Source: Polyangiaceae bacterium
GTDB taxonomy: Bacteria; Myxococcota_A; Polyangia; Polyangiales; Polyangiaceae
Length of the DNA stretch: 64,000 nt
Assembly (NCBI GenBank): GCA_020846005.1
Contig: JADLEQ010000080.1
Coordinates: forward strand, 1-64,000
Reading direction: 5' to 3'
The position numbers were made by a program, and so were the translations under genes. A model generated the notes under the pieces. It ran no database searches and was not told where the DNA came from. It worked only from the letters and a program-made list of their open reading frames with translations. Every line of letters begins with the position of its first letter. The first letter of the stretch is position 1. Shown here in pieces: positions 37,015-64,000 of the stretch.

Positions 37015-37629
37015 TCACCCGGCGCCGCGCTCGAGACCGGTCACGTAGGCCTCGAGCACCAGCCGATCGATCGACTCGAAATCTGCGGCGTACCCGGCGA
37101 GGTGCTCGGCCTCGAGCCTCGCCATCCCGTGAGCGAGCGCCCAGAAGCCGTACGCCATCTCCTCCGCGCCGAACCCGGGACGCGGGCAGAACGCTCCCCC
37201 GTCGATGCCGGACTGCACGCAGGCGACGACGACCCCGAACGGGTTGCCGGACCCGAGCGGCTCGCTCGGCGCGCGGCGCTGCGAGGCCATGCGCCCGAAC
37301 AGTAGGAGATAGTCCTCAGGGTTCTCGCGGGCGAACCCCAGGTACGCCGAGCCCAGCCGCAGCAGCCGCGCGCGCGGCGCCAGCGACTCGGGCACCCGCC
37401 CGAAGCGCGCGGCGAGCCGGCCGATGACCTCGGCCGCGAGCACGGCGAGGAGCGCCTCACGGCTCTCGAAGTACTCGTAGAGGCTCGCCGGGCTGTACCC
37501 GGCGCGCGCCGCGACGGCGCGGAGCGACAGCGTCGACGCGCCGCCCTCGAGCACCAACGAGCGAGCGGCCGCCAGGATGGCGCCGCGACCCCGCTCGGGG
37601 CGGGCCGGCGATCGGCGGCGAGTGGCCAT
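37015..37629 (-). CDS. TetR family regulator
   Basis: 204 residues from ATG 37629. N-terminal TetR helix-turn-helix: ILAAARSLVLEGGASTLSLR, AVAARAGYSPASLYEYFESR. The C-terminal part (LLRLGSAYLGFARENPEDYL … YGFWALAHGMARLEAEHLAG) fits the TetR_C domain of the AcrR-like group. A CCGAAC-N3-GTTCGG site between its -35 (TTGACA, 37659-37664) and the -10 position implies autorepression. A second copy controls the downstream hydrolase gene. The inducer is unknown. Confidence 0.9.
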   Translation of the reverse strand: MATRRRSPARPERGRGAILAAARSLVLEGGASTLSLRAVAARAGYSPASLYEYFESREALLAVLAAEVIGRLAARFGRVPESLAPRARLLRLGSAYLGFARENPEDYLLLFGRMASQRRAPSEPLGSGNPFGVVVACVQSGIDGGAFCPRPGFGAEEMAYGFWALAHGMARLEAEHLAGYAADFESIDRLVLEAYVTGLERGAG

Positions 37630-54064: not shown

Positions 54065-55366
54065 TCACGGCTCGACGAAGGTGACCACCAGCGAGGGGCG
54101 CGCGGCCGCGTCCGAGTACTCGGAGCTGCGGTAGTCGCTCCCGCCGCCCGAGAGGAGGCCGCCGTCCGCGAGGAGGATGACGCCGTAGTTGGGGGTGCCG
54201 TCCACCCACAGCTGGACGAGCGCGGTGAGATCGACCTGACGCATCCCGACGGACGCCGTGAAGTAAGCCGCCTGCACGGCGTCCCGCGCCGGCTGCGTGT
54301 CCCAGGCGACCGAGCTCTCCGACCACGGCGCGAGCACGCGGAAGACCTGGACGGCCGCGCCGGTATCGAAACATTGGAGCTGCAGCGTCGCCGACTGGAT
54401 GACGACCCCCGGCGGCAGCCGCGTCACGAGCTCGGGGACCTGCAGCAGCGTCCGGTAGACCGGGTCTCCATCGACGAGGATCTTGGTGCTCGCGCCGAAG
54501 TTCTGAGACTTCTCCGAGCCGTCGTCCGAGATGTAGGTGTCTTCGAGGTCGGCCGCGCCGAACGTGATCGTGCCGCCGCACCTCCCGGCGCCGCAGGTCG
54601 CGACCCCGCCGACCGGCGCGACACACTCGTGCCCGCACGCGCCACAGTGGGCCAAGGTCGCGAGGAGGTGGGTCTCGCACCCGTTGGACACGTCGCCGTC
54701 GCAGTCTCCAGCGCCGGGGTTGCAGGCGACGCCCCCCGTACCGCCGGCGCCGGTGCCGCTGGCGCCGCCGGACGAGGCCGCGCCCGCACCAGCCGCCCCC
54801 CCCGCGCCCCCGGACGAGGCCGCGCCGACGCCCCCGGACGCCGCGCCGCTCGCGCCACCGGTCGACGTCCCACCCGAGGCCGCGCCGCCCGCGCCCCCCG
54901 GCCCTCCCCCTGTACCCATACCCCCCGCAGCGGATCCGCCTCCACCGGCGCCAGCGAGTCCTCCCGCCCCGCTCGCCCCCGCCCCGCTCGCCCCCGCCCC
55001 GCTCGCCCCCGCCCCGCTCGAAGCCCCGCCGCCGCCAGCGGCGGCGCTCCCACCGCCTGCGTCCGCGCCGGTCCGACCGCCGCTGCTCGCGCCGCCGCTC
55101 GCCGGAGTCGCCGCCCCCGCGACCCCGGCAGCCCCCCCGCCGCCGGCGCGCGCGCCGATCGGCTCTTCGAGCTGCACGCCCTGCGCGCAGGCCGCGCCAG
55201 TGACGCCCCCGGCCAGCAACGTCAGGCGACGCAGGGATCTGCGGCGCGCCGGCGCTGCCCGCCCCGGTGATGCGGGGCGCTCGCATGCGGACGGAGGGTT
55301 CAGCCTGCCCGGCAGGTCGCCCAACGGCGCCGGCGGTCGTGCGAGCGAGGAAGGAGGTCGAGGCAT
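54065..55366 (-). CDS. DNRLRE-domain lipoprotein
   Basis: 433 residues. The signal region (RRLTLLAGGVTGAACAQG) ends in a lipobox at about residue 60; the true start may be internal. Residues about 70-220 are a Gly/Ala/Ser linker with GAGASGAGASGAG-type repeats encoded by near-identical 12-15-bp DNA units around 54960-55020. One Cys repeat (GDCDGDVSNGCETH … HCGACGHEC) is the same unit that is repeated some 20 times in the giant lipoprotein starting at 59833. The C-terminal 160 residues form a DNRLRE domain: DLEDTYISDDGSEKSQNFGA, LPPGVVIQSATLQLQCF, WSESSVAWDTQPA. Likely surface-bound. Confidence 0.8.
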   Translation of the reverse strand: MPRPPSSLARPPAPLGDLPGRLNPPSACERPASPGRAAPARRRSLRRLTLLAGGVTGAACAQGVQLEEPIGARAGGGGAAGVAGAATPASGGASSGGRTGADAGGGSAAAGGGGASSGAGASGAGASGAGASGAGGLAGAGGGGSAAGGMGTGGGPGGAGGAASGGTSTGGASGAASGGVGAASSGGAGGAAGAGAASSGGASGTGAGGTGGVACNPGAGDCDGDVSNGCETHLLATLAHCGACGHECVAPVGGVATCGAGRCGGTITFGAADLEDTYISDDGSEKSQNFGASTKILVDGDPVYRTLLQVPELVTRLPPGVVIQSATLQLQCFDTGAAVQVFRVLAPWSESSVAWDTQPARDAVQAAYFTASVGMRQVDLTALVQLWVDGTPNYGVILLADGGLLSGGGSDYRSSEYSDAAARPSLVVTFVEP

Positions 55367-57840: not shown

Positions 57841-58998
57841 ATGACCGCCCTCCACGGACTCAAGGTGCTCGACCTCACCCGGCTCCTGCCGGGCCCCTTC
57901 GCGACCATGGTGCTCGCCGATCTCGGCGCGCAGGTGGACAAGGTGGAGGACACCGGCGCCGGCGACTACCTGCGCGCCGCGCCCCCCGCCGTGGAGGGTA
58001 TGGGCGCTGGGTTCCACATCCTGAACCGCGGCAAGCGGAGCCTGGCGCTCGATCTCAAGCGCCCCGAGGGCGCGTCGGTCCTGCTCCGCCTCGCGCGCAG
58101 CTACGACGTAGTGTTCGAGCAGTTCCGCCCGGGGGTGATGGACCGGCTCGGGCTGTCCCACGCGCGGCTCTTGGAGGAGAATCCGCGGCTGGTCGTGTGC
58201 GCGCTCACCGGGTACGGGCAGGACGGCCCGCTCCGGGACCGGGCGGGCCACGATCTGAACTACCTCGCGCGGGCCGGGATCCTCGGGCTGATGGGCCCGG
58301 TCGATGGCCCGCCGCAGCTCCCGAGCTTCCAGCTCGCGGACGTCTCGGGCGGGCTCTACGCCGTGATCGGGATCCTCGCTGCGCTCCGCGCCCGCGACGC
58401 GACGGGGCGAGGCTCGGTGGTCGACGTGTCGATGCTCGAGTCGGTGATCGGGTTCGCGGCGCTCCCGCTGGCGCGCCTGCTCGCCGGCGAGCTGCCGGCG
58501 CGAGGCGCTGAGTACCTGACGGGCGGGATCGCGGCGTACGGCTGCTATGCCACGAAGGACGGCGGGGCGGTGACGCTCGGCGCGCTCGAGCCCAAGTTCC
58601 TCGCGGCGTTCCTCACCGCGGTCGGGATGGAGCCCGACCTCATGCTGCTCGTCCCCGGCGAGCACCAAGCCGCGTACCAGCAGCGCCTCGCGGAGCTGTT
58701 CCGCACGCGCACGCGCGCCGAGTGGGAGGCGCTCGGCCGCGCCCACGACTGCTGCGTCGAGCCGGTGCTCCGCCCGGACGAGCTGCTCACCGATCCGCAG
58801 CTCGTCGCCCGGCGTGCCTTCGTGACGGCCCAGGTGGGCGGCGCGACGCTCGGCCACTTCCGCACGCCGGTGACGCCGCGCGATTTCACGCCGGCGCCCG
58901 CGCCGGCGCAGGGCGAGCACGGCGACGCCATCCTGCGCGAGGCGGGGCTGGAGGCCGGCGAGGTCGTCGCGCTCCGCCGCGCGGGCGTGCTCCGCTGA
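57841..58998 (+). CDS. alpha-methylacyl-CoA racemase (CaiB/BaiF superfamily)
   Basis: 385 residues, 32 bases after accC. The class III CoA-transferase fold is clear: LKVLDLTRLLPGPFATMVLA, DLGAQVDKVE, RGKRSLALDLKRPEG. The racemase catalytic pair of AMACR/MCR is present: His137 in AGHDLNYLARAG and Asp167 in LADVSGGLY, 30 residues apart as in the mycobacterial enzyme. It epimerises 2-methylacyl-CoA, opening branched-chain fatty acids to beta-oxidation. A CoA-transferase activity is the alternative but the His/Asp spacing favours racemase. Confidence 0.88.
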   Translation: MTALHGLKVLDLTRLLPGPFATMVLADLGAQVDKVEDTGAGDYLRAAPPAVEGMGAGFHILNRGKRSLALDLKRPEGASVLLRLARSYDVVFEQFRPGVMDRLGLSHARLLEENPRLVVCALTGYGQDGPLRDRAGHDLNYLARAGILGLMGPVDGPPQLPSFQLADVSGGLYAVIGILAALRARDATGRGSVVDVSMLESVIGFAALPLARLLAGELPARGAEYLTGGIAAYGCYATKDGGAVTLGALEPKFLAAFLTAVGMEPDLMLLVPGEHQAAYQQRLAELFRTRTRAEWEALGRAHDCCVEPVLRPDELLTDPQLVARRAFVTAQVGGATLGHFRTPVTPRDFTPAPAPAQGEHGDAILREAGLEAGEVVALRRAGVLR

Positions 58999-59051
58999 GC
59001 GCAGCGGGCGCGCCGCTTGCCGCCACGCCGTCACGTCACTATGCCGTCGTC

Positions 59052-59609
59052 ATGACCGCGGCTCTCCAGCGCATGCCGAGCGACCTCACGGCCCTCGATG
59101 CCACCGGGCGCGTGGTGCCGCTGGCGGAGCTGTGGCGCGACCGCCCCGCAGTGCTGGCGTTCGTCCGGCACTTCGGTTGACTCTTCTGCCATGAGCAGGC
59201 CGCGCAGTTGCGCGGTGAGCTGGCGAGGCTCGAGGAGCTTGGGGTGGCGCTCTGGGTCATCGGGAGCGGCTCGCCCGAGCACGCGCGAGGGTTCGCGGAG
59301 GCGCACGACCTGCGGGGGCGGGTCCTGAGCGACCCGAGCCGAGCGAGCTACCGGGCGCTCGGGATGCGGCGGGACGCGGGGGCGTTCTTGACGCCACGCG
59401 TCTTGGGGAACGCGGCGCGCGCCTGGAAGGGCGGCTTCCGGCAGGGCCGCACCCAGGGCGATCCTTGGCAGCAAGGCGGCGTGGCCGTGGTGCGGCGCGA
59501 CGGCTCGCTCGAGTATCTGCAGATCAGCGACTCGACCGGCGCCCACGCGCCGGTCGCGGAGCTCCTCGCCGCCGCAGCGCGGGCGGCGCGCGGCGAGGGC
59601 TCGTCGTAG
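59052..59609 (+). CDS. PRXL2/SelU-like (AhpC/TSA-type) redox protein, probable selenoprotein
   Basis: 185 residues if the in-frame TGA at 59178-59180 is read as selenocysteine (residue 43). The motif reads VRHFG-U-LFCHEQAAQLR, a UxxC (Sec43, Cys46) at exactly the CxxC position of the PRXL2/FAM213/SelU-like thioredoxin-fold family. The downstream part continues in the same frame and fits the family: LEELGVALWVIGSGSPEHAR, VLSDPSRASYRALGM, GDPWQQGGVAVV. A 7-bp hairpin with loop AGTT starts 19 bases after the TGA. Without readthrough only a 42-residue stub would form and the second half would lack a start. A recent nonsense mutation is the alternative; conservation on both sides argues against it. 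Confidence 0.8.
59199..59216 (+). promoter_or_regulatory. candidate bacterial SECIS hairpin
   Basis: CCGCGC (59200-59205), loop AGTT (59206-59209) and GCGCGG (59210-59215), extended by a G-U pair (59199/59216). The loop begins 25 bases after the TGA, and its second base is G. Published bacterial SECIS patterns ask for a short apical loop with a G among its first two bases some 16-37 bases past UGA, which this meets. It lies inside the coding sequence, as bacterial SECIS elements do. Confidence 0.65.
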
Positions 59610-59832: not shown

Positions 59833-62800
59833 ATGCACGACATCCTGAAGCGGGCACGACTCCTGGGTGCTGCGAGCGCGCTCGCGATGGCGTTCGCTGC
59901 GGCTTGCGCGAGCGGGGGCGACGAAGGCGGCGGGGGCGGCGGGACAGCCGCGCGCGACGCAGGGCGCGACGCCCCCGGCGGCTCGGACGGCGGGGGCAGC
60001 GGCGGCACCGCTGCGACCGGAGGCGCGGGCGGAACGGCAGGATCCGGTGGCGGCGCGGGGAGCGGCGGCGCGAGCGGCGGGGGCGCCTCGGGAGCCTCGG
60101 GCGCGGCGGGCGAAGACGCCGGCGCCGACGCGGACGCCGACGCGGACACCGACGCCGACGCCGCGGACGGCGACGGGGGGCTCGAGTGCCAGTACATCAT
60201 CGAGGTCTGCAACGGCCTCGACGACAACTGCAACGGCAGCATCGACGAGAGCGACCCGGGCGCGGGCGCCGCCTGCGCGGTGCCGGGCGCGCTCGGCGTG
60301 TGCGGGACGGGCGAGACCGCGTGCATCTTCGGCGCGTTGACGTGTGTCCCGCAGATCGCACCGGGCGCCGAGCAGTGCAACTCTCTCGACGACGACTGCG
60401 ACGGCCAGACGGACGAGGGCAACCCCGGCGGGAACCAGTCGTGCAACACGGGGCTCGACGGCGTCTGCGCCGCGGGCACGACGGCCTGCGCGGCCGGCGC
60501 GATCGTCTGCAACCAGAACGTGCAAGGCGGCGCCGAGGTGTGCAACGGCCTCGACGACGACTGCGACGGCGTGCCGGACGACGGCTTCGCCGGCGCCGGC
60601 GAGCCGTGCATCGTCACGAGCCAGGTGCCGAACACGCCGTGCGCCAGCGGCCTCACCAACTGCCTCGGGGGCCAGAACAACTGCACGCAGACGGTCTTCC
60701 CCGACGTGGAGACGTGCGACACGATCGACAACGACTGCAACGGCACGATCGACGACCCGAGCGTCCTCGACAACAAGCCGTGCACCACCGCGCTCCCCGG
60801 GGTCTGCGCCCCCGGCACGACGGACTGCTCGGGCGGTGTGTCGACCTGCGTGCCGAACGTGGCGCCCGGCGCGCAGCTCGAGACGTGTAACGCGGTGGAC
60901 GACGACTGCAACGGCACGCTGGACGACGTGGCGAACATCGCGCTCGAGTGCGGCTCGAAGCTGCCGCTCGCGTCGAACGTCGCGGGCTGGCAGTGCACCA
61001 CGGGGTACTGCCAGGTCGCGAGCTGCGCCGCGGGCTACGCCGACTGCGACGGTCAGCCCGGGAACGGGTGCGAGGTGAACACCGCGGCGAGCCCGGTCCA
61101 CTGCGGCGCCTGTGGCAACCTGTGCAGCGCGACCAACGGGAGCCCCGTCTGTTCCTCGGGCGTGTGCGCCATCGTCTGCAACACGGGGTGGGGCAACTGC
61201 GACGGCGACGCCTCGAACGGCTGCGAGCTCGCGCTCGCCTCGGACGTCGCCAACTGCGGCGCCTGCGGCAACACCTGCAGCGCGTCCGCAGGGACACCTT
61301 CTTGCAGCGGCGGGGTGTGCGGCATCGCCTGCGACCCGGGCTTCGGCAACTGCGACGGCTTCGCGCCGAACGGCTGCGAGACGAACCTGCTGACGACGGT
61401 CGCCCACTGCAGCGGCTGCGGGGCGGCCTGCAACAGCACCAACGGCACCCCGGCGTGCGCAGGCGGCACCTGCGCGATCTCCTGTAACCTCGGCTACGGA
61501 GACTGCGACGGCAGCGCGGCGACCGGCTGCGAGACGAACGTCGCCTCGACGACCTCGCACTGCGGCGCCTGCGGCAACGCCTGCAGCGCGAACAACGGCA
61601 CCCCGTCGTGCACCGGCGGGCTCTGCGGCATCGCGTGCACGACCGGCTTCGGCAACTGCGACGCCGACATCACCACCGGGTGCGAGACGAACGTCAACGT
61701 GAGCACGGCGCACTGCGGGGGGTGCGGGATCGCCTGCAATTCCACGAACGGGACGCCGTCCTGCGCCTCGGGCTCGTGCGCCATCACCTGCACCCCCGGG
61801 TTCGCGAACTGCGACGGCAGCGCGGTCAACGGCTGCGAGACGAACCTCTCCAGCGTGACGAGCTGCGGCGTCTGCGGGACGGTCTGCAGCACCGTGAACG
61901 GCATCCCGGGGTGCGACGGCACGGCCTGCACGATCGCGTGCAACCCGGGGTGGGGTAACTGCAACGGGAACCTCGCCGATGGCTGCGAGACGAACCTCGG
62001 GACGACCTCCAACTGCGGCATCTGCGGGAACGTCTGCAACTCCTCCGGCGGCACGCCCACCTGCTCCGGCGGAGTCTGCAGCGGCATCACGTGCAACCCC
62101 GGCTTCGCCAACTGCGATGGCAACGACGCGAACGGCTGTGAGACGAACACGTACACGGTGACGAACTGCGGCGCCTGCGGCACCGCGTGCAGCTCCGCGA
62201 ACGGCACGCCGAGCTGCCCCTCCGGGAGCTGCAACATCGCCTGCACGCCGGGCTTCGCCAACTGCAACGGCAACGTCGCGGACGGCTGCGAGGTCGCGCT
62301 GGGCAACGACACCACCAACTGCGGCGCCTGCGGGAACGTCTGTAACGCGACGAACGGCACCGCGACCTGCTCGTCGGGGACCTGCGGCGTGACCTGCAGC
62401 GCGGGCTTCGCGAACTGCGACGCCAACCCCTCCAACGGCTGCGAGACCTCGACGACGACGACCTCCAACTGCGGCGCGTGCGGGAACGCCTGCAGCACCG
62501 TGAACTCGACGCCGTCGTGCAGCGGCGGAGCATGTCAACTGGCCTGCACCTCCGGATGGGCCAGCTGCGACGGCAACGTCGCCAACGGCTGCGAGACCAA
62601 CATCGCGACCGGCGTGTCGAACTGCGGCGCCTGCGGCAACACCTGCAGCTCCACGAACGGCACCCCGTCCTGTGCGGCCGGCGCGTGCTCGATCGCGTGT
62701 TCGGGAGGTTACGCGAACTGCAACGGGAACGTCGCCGACGGCTGCGAGACGAACCTGGCGACGACCGCCAACTGCGGCGCCTGCGGCAACACCTGCAGCA

Positions 62801-64000
62801 CCACGAACGGGACGCCGGCGTGTGTCAGCGGCGCGTGCCAGATCGCCTGCTCCCCCGGCTGGGGCGACTGCGACGGCAACGTCGCCAACGGCTGCGAGAC
62901 GAACCTCACGACGACGACGAACTGCGGGACCTGCGGGACCGCGTGCTCCACGACGAACGGCACGCCATCCTGCACGGCCGGCGCCTGCACGATCTCCTGC
63001 ACGGCGGGCTGGGGCAACTGCGACGGCAACGCCGCCAACGGCTGCGAGACGAACCTCAACCTGCCCGGGAGCTGCGGGAGCTGCGGGACGGTGTGCAACT
63101 CGACGAACGGCACGGCCACCTGCTCCGGGGGCCTGTGCGGCATCACCTGCTCCGCGGGCTTCGGCAATTGCGACGGCAACCTCTCCAACGGCTGCGAGGT
63201 CGATCTCCAGACGAACACCACCCACTGCGGCGCGTGCAACGGCACGTGCAGCTCGAGCAACGGGACCCCATTCTGCAGCGCCGGGAGCTGCGGCATCACC
63301 TGCACTGCCGGGTTCGGCAACTGCGACTCCAACGTCGCGAACGGCTGTGAGGTGAACCTGAACACCAGCACGGCGAGCTGCGGCGCGTGCGGCACCGCCT
63401 GCAATACGACGAACGGCGTCGCCTCGTGCACCGGCGGCGCGTGCGGGATCGCGTGCAACTCGGGCTATGGCAACTGCGACGGCAACGCGTCCAACGGCTG
63501 CGAGGTGACGCTGGGGACCTCGACCTCCCACTGCGGCGGGTGCGGCAGCGCGTGCAGCACCAACAACGGCACGCCGTCGTGCTCGGGCGGGAACTGCTCG
63601 ATCGCGTGCTCGTCCGGCTACGGTGACTGCGACGGGAACGTCGGCAACGGCTGCGAGACGCAGACGAGCGCGAGCACCTCGCACTGCGGCGGGTGCGGCA
63701 GCGCGTGCAGCACCAACAACGGCACGCCGTCGTGCGTCAGCGGAAGCTGCAGCATCGCTTGCTCCTCGGGGTGGGGCAACTGCGACGCCAACGTGGCGAA
63801 CGGCTGCGAGACGTCGACGGCGTCGAGCGCGACGCACTGCGGCGCCTGCGGCACCGTGTGCAGCTCCAACCACGGCACGCCCTCGTGCTCGGGGGGGGCG
63901 TGTCAGATCGCCTGCAGCGCCGGCTGGGGCAACTGCGACGGCAACGTGAGCAACGGCTGCGAGACGGACGTCACCACCACCAGCAACTGCGGCACGTGCG
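59833..64000 (+). CDS. giant Cys-rich repeat lipoprotein, 3' end beyond the window
   Basis: Open from ATG 59833 to the last base: 1389 codons and unfinished. Lipobox LAMAFAAACASGG with Cys25, a Gly/Ala/Ser linker and an Asp/Ala run (residues about 96-118). Five MopE-like acidic motifs follow, such as CNGLDDNCNGSIDE and CNSLDDDCDGQTDE, each between Cys-rich stretches. From about residue 400, 20 repeats of about 50 residues run to the edge: WGNCDGNxxNGCETN, xxNCGACGxxC, then NGTPSCSxGxC. DNA repeats are 150-156 bp long. Such proteins form stiff disulfide-linked stalks and bind calcium or copper through acidic loops in some relatives. Total length cannot be known here. Confidence 0.9.
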   Translation, partial: MHDILKRARLLGAASALAMAFAAACASGGDEGGGGGGTAARDAGRDAPGGSDGGGSGGTAATGGAGGTAGSGGGAGSGGASGGGASGASGAAGEDAGADADADADTDADAADGDGGLECQYIIEVCNGLDDNCNGSIDESDPGAGAACAVPGALGVCGTGETACIFGALTCVPQIAPGAEQCNSLDDDCDGQTDEGNPGGNQSCNTGLDGVCAAGTTACAAGAIVCNQNVQGGAEVCNGLDDDCDGVPDDGFAGAGEPCIVTSQVPNTPCASGLTNCLGGQNNCTQTVFPDVETCDTIDNDCNGTIDDPSVLDNKPCTTALPGVCAPGTTDCSGGVSTCVPNVAPGAQLETCNAVDDDCNGTLDDVANIALECGSKLPLASNVAGWQCTTGYCQVASCAAGYADCDGQPGNGCEVNTAASPVHCGACGNLCSATNGSPVCSSGVCAIVCNTGWGNCDGDASNGCELALASDVANCGACGNTCSASAGTPSCSGGVCGIACDPGFGNCDGFAPNGCETNLLTTVAHCSGCGAACNSTNGTPACAGGTCAISCNLGYGDCDGSAATGCETNVASTTSHCGACGNACSANNGTPSCTGGLCGIACTTGFGNCDADITTGCETNVNVSTAHCGGCGIACNSTNGTPSCASGSCAITCTPGFANCDGSAVNGCETNLSSVTSCGVCGTVCSTVNGIPGCDGTACTIACNPGWGNCNGNLADGCETNLGTTSNCGICGNVCNSSGGTPTCSGGVCSGITCNPGFANCDGNDANGCETNTYTVTNCGACGTACSSANGTPSCPSGSCNIACTPGFANCNGNVADGCEVALGNDTTNCGACGNVCNATNGTATCSSGTCGVTCSAGFANCDANPSNGCETSTTTTSNCGACGNACSTVNSTPSCSGGACQLACTSGWASCDGNVANGCETNIATGVSNCGACGNTCSSTNGTPSCAAGACSIACSGGYANCNGNVADGCETNLATTANCGACGNTCSTTNGTPACVSGACQIACSPGWGDCDGNVANGCETNLTTTTNCGTCGTACSTTNGTPSCTAGACTISCTAGWGNCDGNAANGCETNLNLPGSCGSCGTVCNSTNGTATCSGGLCGITCSAGFGNCDGNLSNGCEVDLQTNTTHCGACNGTCSSSNGTPFCSAGSCGITCTAGFGNCDSNVANGCEVNLNTSTASCGACGTACNTTNGVASCTGGACGIACNSGYGNCDGNASNGCEVTLGTSTSHCGGCGSACSTNNGTPSCSGGNCSIACSSGYGDCDGNVGNGCETQTSASTSHCGGCGSACSTNNGTPSCVSGSCSIACSSGWGNCDANVANGCETSTASSATHCGACGTVCSSNHGTPSCSGGACQIACSAGWGNCDGNVSNGCETDVTTTSNCGTC

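Follow-up and report, generated by a model that had tools for sequence, protein, structure and literature searches.

A Probable PRXL2-Type Selenoprotein Gene With an In-Frame Bacterial SECIS Hairpin in a Polyangiaceae Genome

Structure of the Locus

The stretch of DNA analyzed here (64,000 nucleotides, referred to throughout as the window) contains a forward-strand frame at 59052-59609 of 185 codons, whose sole interruption is a TGA at 59178-59180 and which ends in a TAG stop at 59607-59609. The features assigned to it are as follows.

59052..59609, + strand: predicted selenoprotein gene, PRXL2 / SelL-related redox protein, 185 aa through one TGA
59178..59180, + strand: TGA predicted to be read as Sec, residue 43, first position of UxxC; at the aligned position 80 relatives have Cys or TGA, and human prostamide/prostaglandin F synthase (PGFS) has Cys44
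59187..59189, + strand: Cys46 codon, predicted resolving residue of UxxC; aligned with Cys47 of human PGFS
59199..59216, + strand: putative bacterial SECIS hairpin, GCCGCGC-AGUU-GCGCGGU; supported by folding, by covariation in 32 relatives and by absence in 24 Cys relatives

In translation the TGA lies in RHFG-U43-LFC46, where Sec would be the first residue of a CxxC motif; the preliminary description of this DNA had placed an in-frame TGA on just that Cys, and its frame, coordinates and position were all correct. Translation could start at ATG 59052 (M1) or ATG 59073 (M8), and no strong ribosome-binding site was seen by eye upstream of 59052. Mechanical ORF calling splits the gene into 58722-59180 and 59208-59609. 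The expectation of a truncated gene followed by a start-less fragment thus held as far as two broken ORFs are concerned, but the downstream piece has a possible TTG start at 59208. Standard annotation would likewise break the gene in two, an error that reading the TGA as Sec corrects.

Upstream lie genes for a biotin carboxylase and a CoA-transferase; neither was found near the relatives' loci, and the context yields no functional clue. An Rfam scan of the 64-kb window at gathering cut-offs returned no match. Downstream, 59833-64000 (+) encodes a long protein that continues past the window edge, with many NGxDDNCNG-type repeats and a match to Pfam Cu-binding_MopE, and on the other side the product of 54065-55366 (-) combines an extended low-complexity tract of Gly/Ala/Ser with a CBM96 carbohydrate-binding module at its C terminus. 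Scanning the window by read-through for more selenoproteins gave only four weak candidates, but the GC3 filter used missed the known gene, which makes the scan unreliable as a negative; the candidate at 37017 looks, on inspection, like two adjacent genes.

Family Assignment and Predicted Fold

Both halves of the frame had been said to match one family in the same frame, and profile searches bear this out: NF040769 (SelL-related redox protein, a 173-position model) spans residues 12-174 in one frame (E 6.8e-30, 104 bits), and Pfam AhpC-TSA_2 (PF13911), AhpC-TSA (PF00578) and Redoxin all score over their cut-offs, PF13911 (63.1 bits against a gathering cut-off of 27) being a better match than PF00578. 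The NF040769 score of 104 bits lies below the curated cut-off of 120 bits, which makes the protein a near relative rather than a formal member, and automatic naming would therefore miss it, besides the break at the TGA. NF040769 was matched by 23 of 23 tested family members, Sec and Cys forms alike. No AhpC-TSA_2 gene other than the window gene was detected in its genome.

By sequence the top PDB match is human PGFS, which we take to be the PRXL2B protein (E 5.9e-15, or 1e-24 with a profile; 28% identity); the PGFS residues Cys44 and Cys47, both of them mutated in 9usa, are the aligned counterparts of U43 and C46. An AlphaFold2 model with Sec modeled as Cys (mean pLDDT 94.1, pTM 0.90) predicts, with high confidence, a thioredoxin/peroxiredoxin fold of the PRXL2 type, and a fold search with that model again returned human PGFS (9usa) as best PDB match.

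Selenocysteine Machinery

The genome that carries the gene (G000; 5.7 Mb, 119 contigs, 99% complete) contains selA, selB, selC and selD, on whose presence the preliminary description had made its reading depend. The tRNA-Sec has anticodon UCA and scores 67 bits, and profile scores are 467 bits for selA, 247 bits for selB and 325 bits for selD. One of these genes carries an in-frame TGA of its own:

G000:C19:31121-32044 (L018 1453-2454): selD, itself a selenoprotein gene; in-frame TGA, SSGGUAAKVGP

The TGA (SSGG-U-AAKVGP, residue 27 of the translated stretch) falls at what is presumably the position where SelD proteins usually have Cys or Sec, and selD is therefore a second gene of this genome with the same recoding.

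Across genomes, tRNA-Sec was present in all nine examined that have the Sec form (own genome included) and selA in eight of them, compared with 6/15 and 7/15, respectively, of the Cys-only genomes examined; for tRNA-Sec and the Sec form the one-sided hypergeometric probability, computed by hand, is ~0.004. In the Sec-form genome G032, tRNA-Sec is present and selA was not found in the assembly, likely because of an assembly gap. In G001, the only same-genus genome examined (~90% complete), the gene is missing, as are selA and tRNA-Sec; members of the genus thus differ in this trait.

Sec/Cys Exchange Among Relatives

Related loci were collected by scanning GTDB species genomes with peptide patterns. 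In the best 80 of 158 loci, a selection whose frequencies are not unbiased, residue 43 is encoded by TGA in 56 and is Cys in 24, across at least 12 phyla; the motifs in these best 80 of 158 are UxxC (44), CxxC (24), UxxA (10), UxxS (1) and UxxT (1). Many of the records are metagenome-assembled and their taxon labels may be wrong. As labeled, the Sec loci among the best 80 of 158 fall in Myxococcota (24), Planctomycetota (8), Thermodesulfobacteriota (7), Chloroflexota (3), Pseudomonadota (3), and Acidobacteriota, Gemmatimonadota and Dormiibacterota (one each), with no phylum label for another eight. The anticipated exchange of Cys and Sec at residue 43 is thus seen among homologues, and the closest ones from the same order have either TGA or Cys there. 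In an 81-protein tree, the best topology implies ~15 Sec/Cys changes, and for the Cys label at least nine fall on branches with good support. The window protein groups with four Myxococcota proteins in a supported set that comprises three Sec and two Cys forms in all; the nearest protein by tree path, L050 (= L021), is a Cys form.

The UxxA proteins form a clade (L091, L092, L093, L094, L095, L096, L100, L105, L107, and L115), mostly Thermodesulfobacteriota, in which the partner Cys is absent and the SECIS sits in a nearer register (loop 16-17 nt after UGA). The single UxxS protein, L110, belongs to a clade that is mostly UxxA. Judged by their motif, the UxxA proteins would need an outside thiol and are predicted to be single-Sec enzymes. 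Separately, a same-family genome encodes an AhpC/PrxQ-like protein (L049 1501-1803) with a TGA in GHW-U-LYC, a probable UxxC selenoprotein.

The SECIS Hairpin in the Window and Across the Family

The hairpin downstream of the TGA has a 7-bp stem (59199-59205 / 59210-59216) and the loop AGUU (59206-59209), with G at loop position 2. It had been described as fitting the SECIS rule 19 bases downstream; the hairpin is real and fits the rule, but 18 nt separate the UGA from the stem, and the loop begins 25 nt past the UGA. It folds at -13.6 kcal/mol, whereas shuffled sequences average -8.0. A published bacterial SECIS model allows a loop of 3-9 nt, a stem of 4-16 bp, G in the first two loop bases, a distance of 16-37 nt from the UGA and MFE <= -7.5 (PMC13188914), and the window hairpin agrees with it (4-nt loop, 7 bp, 25 nt, -13.6 kcal/mol). 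Equal or stronger hairpins follow 50 of the 849 TGAs in this GC-rich window, in five cases with a loop that also lies 25 nt away, and synonymous shuffles of the gene equal its hairpin in 20% of trials. By itself the hairpin is weak evidence. Because single-sequence statistics are too weak at this GC content, relatives were compared, and that comparison lifts it above chance.

Mean stem score was 17.8 for Sec members and 8.8 for Cys members (Mann-Whitney p 3e-10), and the Sec mean is also well above the average of 9.5 for the same members' own synonymous shuffles; at p<0.05, synonymous shuffles were exceeded by 31 of the 57 Sec members tested but by none of the 24 Cys members. In an ungapped alignment of 32 Sec members in the window's register, 88.8% of cells are paired and six of seven pairs show two-sided changes, a covariation score reached by 0/500 shuffles. 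Another 20 Sec members share a second register, in which six pairs form, the loop follows the UGA by 16 nt and pairing reaches 97.5%. For both alignments the register was assigned from the sequences themselves, which favors structure; the Cys set and the controls, both slid and shuffled, speak against this bias as the cause, and neither register rose above shuffle level in the 24 Cys members. In phylogenetically independent pairs, using a hairpin threshold chosen after the data were seen, the hairpin accompanies Sec in ~8/9 and never the opposite (p 0.008). These comparisons argue strongly that the hairpin of Sec members covaries and follows the Sec/Cys switches on the tree, and they identify the window hairpin as the probable bacterial SECIS that the preliminary description had proposed, with its stem conserved by covariation.

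Decoding of Codon 43 and Proposed Mechanism

Complete machinery, Sec/Cys exchange, and SECIS covariation that tracks Sec together leave about as little doubt over Sec insertion at codon 43 as sequence evidence can. We consider it very likely (probability roughly 0.93) that the gene yields a full-length PRXL2-type selenoprotein in which UGA codon 43 is read as Sec via SelB and the hairpin, with a predicted redox cycle. In the proposed mechanism, SelB carrying Sec-tRNA(UCA) would bind the hairpin located 18 nt past the UGA on the mRNA itself, and the ribosome would decode that codon as selenocysteine. In the U43-L-F-C46 active site, Sec43 would most likely attack a peroxide or disulfide substrate, resolution by Cys46 would give a selenylsulfide, and this a thioredoxin-like donor would then reduce; this two-residue cycle is the most likely one by analogy with PRXL2/PGFS and peroxiredoxins.

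The gene could instead be a PRXL2 gene of the Cys type, its TGA the result of a nonsense mutation or of a miscalled TGC. TGA is one base from TGC/TGT, the assembly is a draft of 119 contigs, and the nearest relative on the tree has Cys. However, TGA occupies the same codon in the 56 other loci (best 80 of 158), ~50% identity is kept among relatives in the half downstream of the TGA, and a SECIS hairpin to match goes with the TGA and is lacking where Cys is found; a pseudogene or assembly error is largely refuted and retains very little probability. Equally improbable is a true stop that leaves two separate proteins, the second translated from TTG 59208. The ORF for such a protein exists, but the active site would be divided and Cys46 would be lost from both products, Cys relatives are continuous across the site, and the genome's Sec machinery is complete. 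Least probable is insertion of another amino acid such as Trp, or unguided read-through, for which nothing specific was found beyond the fact that other codes too would leave the frame open, and against which stand homologues with Cys and never Trp at the site, the UCA tRNA-Sec, and hairpin conservation specific to TGA members.

Distribution and Significance

The full-length selenoprotein favored here is of a kind already known. By 2008 SelL had been listed for bacteria as well as eukaryotes (PMC2398784), and among the selenoproteins listed in a 2026 review are a bacterial UxxS protein of cd02970 and one of PF00578 with UxxC/UxxU (PMC13188914); the NCBI family name of NF040769 itself ties the group of the window protein to SelL. 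The novelty first attached to a bacterial Sec form was therefore too strong, although it stands in so far as metagenomic SelU was taken as eukaryotic: Sargasso/GOS SelU reads were so judged partly because no bacterial SECIS was found (PMC1088965, PMC2398784). Our literature search for SelL-related proteins in Myxococcota and for myxobacterial selenoproteins found nothing relevant, and within the literature searched the window gene is an undescribed member. Less expected were the breadth of UxxC, the UxxA clade and the two SECIS registers, for which no description was found in the same literature.

These data suggest that bacterial relatives are more widespread than the published lists consulted indicate. 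Two alternative hairpin places under the same peptide stretch would imply that the SECIS was rebuilt or moved several times. The wider picture, which we regard as somewhat better than an even bet, is of a family whose closest 80 loci carry Sec more often than Cys and in which many Sec/Cys switches have occurred across phyla, the SECIS has been rebuilt or moved between 25 and 16-17 nt, and one UxxA clade works with a single Sec. As the relatives show, Sec forms of the PRXL2 (SelU/SelL) group have a true bacterial SECIS in phyla that include Myxococcota, Planctomycetota, Chloroflexota, and Desulfobacterota. Repeated Sec/Cys switches with the hairpin in step, at two positions, offer a natural test set for the origin of SECIS elements in coding sequence, and the family also suits asking what selenium adds to a PRXL2 enzyme.

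Comparison With Known Systems

Profile, PDB and motif matches indicate that the window protein is related to PRXL2 (SelU/SelL). With SelU / PRXL2 (FAM213; human PRXL2B, PDB 9us9, 9usa) it shares the predicted fold and the aligned U/CxxC pair, whereas its SECIS is bacterial and in-frame and that of SelU is a 3′ UTR element. Reduction of PGH2 or prostamide H2, a prostanoid reaction, characterizes PGFS; the window protein is placed near it by sequence and predicted fold. SelL of fish, other aquatic animals and bacteria is likewise Prx-like with Sec in a redox motif (PMC2398784), but fish SelL has two Sec two residues apart (PMC3316567), while the window protein has one Sec in UxxC and no SelL-type UxxU. 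The bacterial cd02970 peroxiredoxin-like UxxS protein (PMC13188914), compared by description, probably belongs to the same superfamily and differs in motif. With the bacterial Prx-like thiol:disulfide oxidoreductase of PF00578, which has UxxC/UxxU (PMC1794560, PMC13188914), the motif and the broad fold are common to both, but the window protein is better matched by PF13911, and its closest solved protein is PRXL2B.
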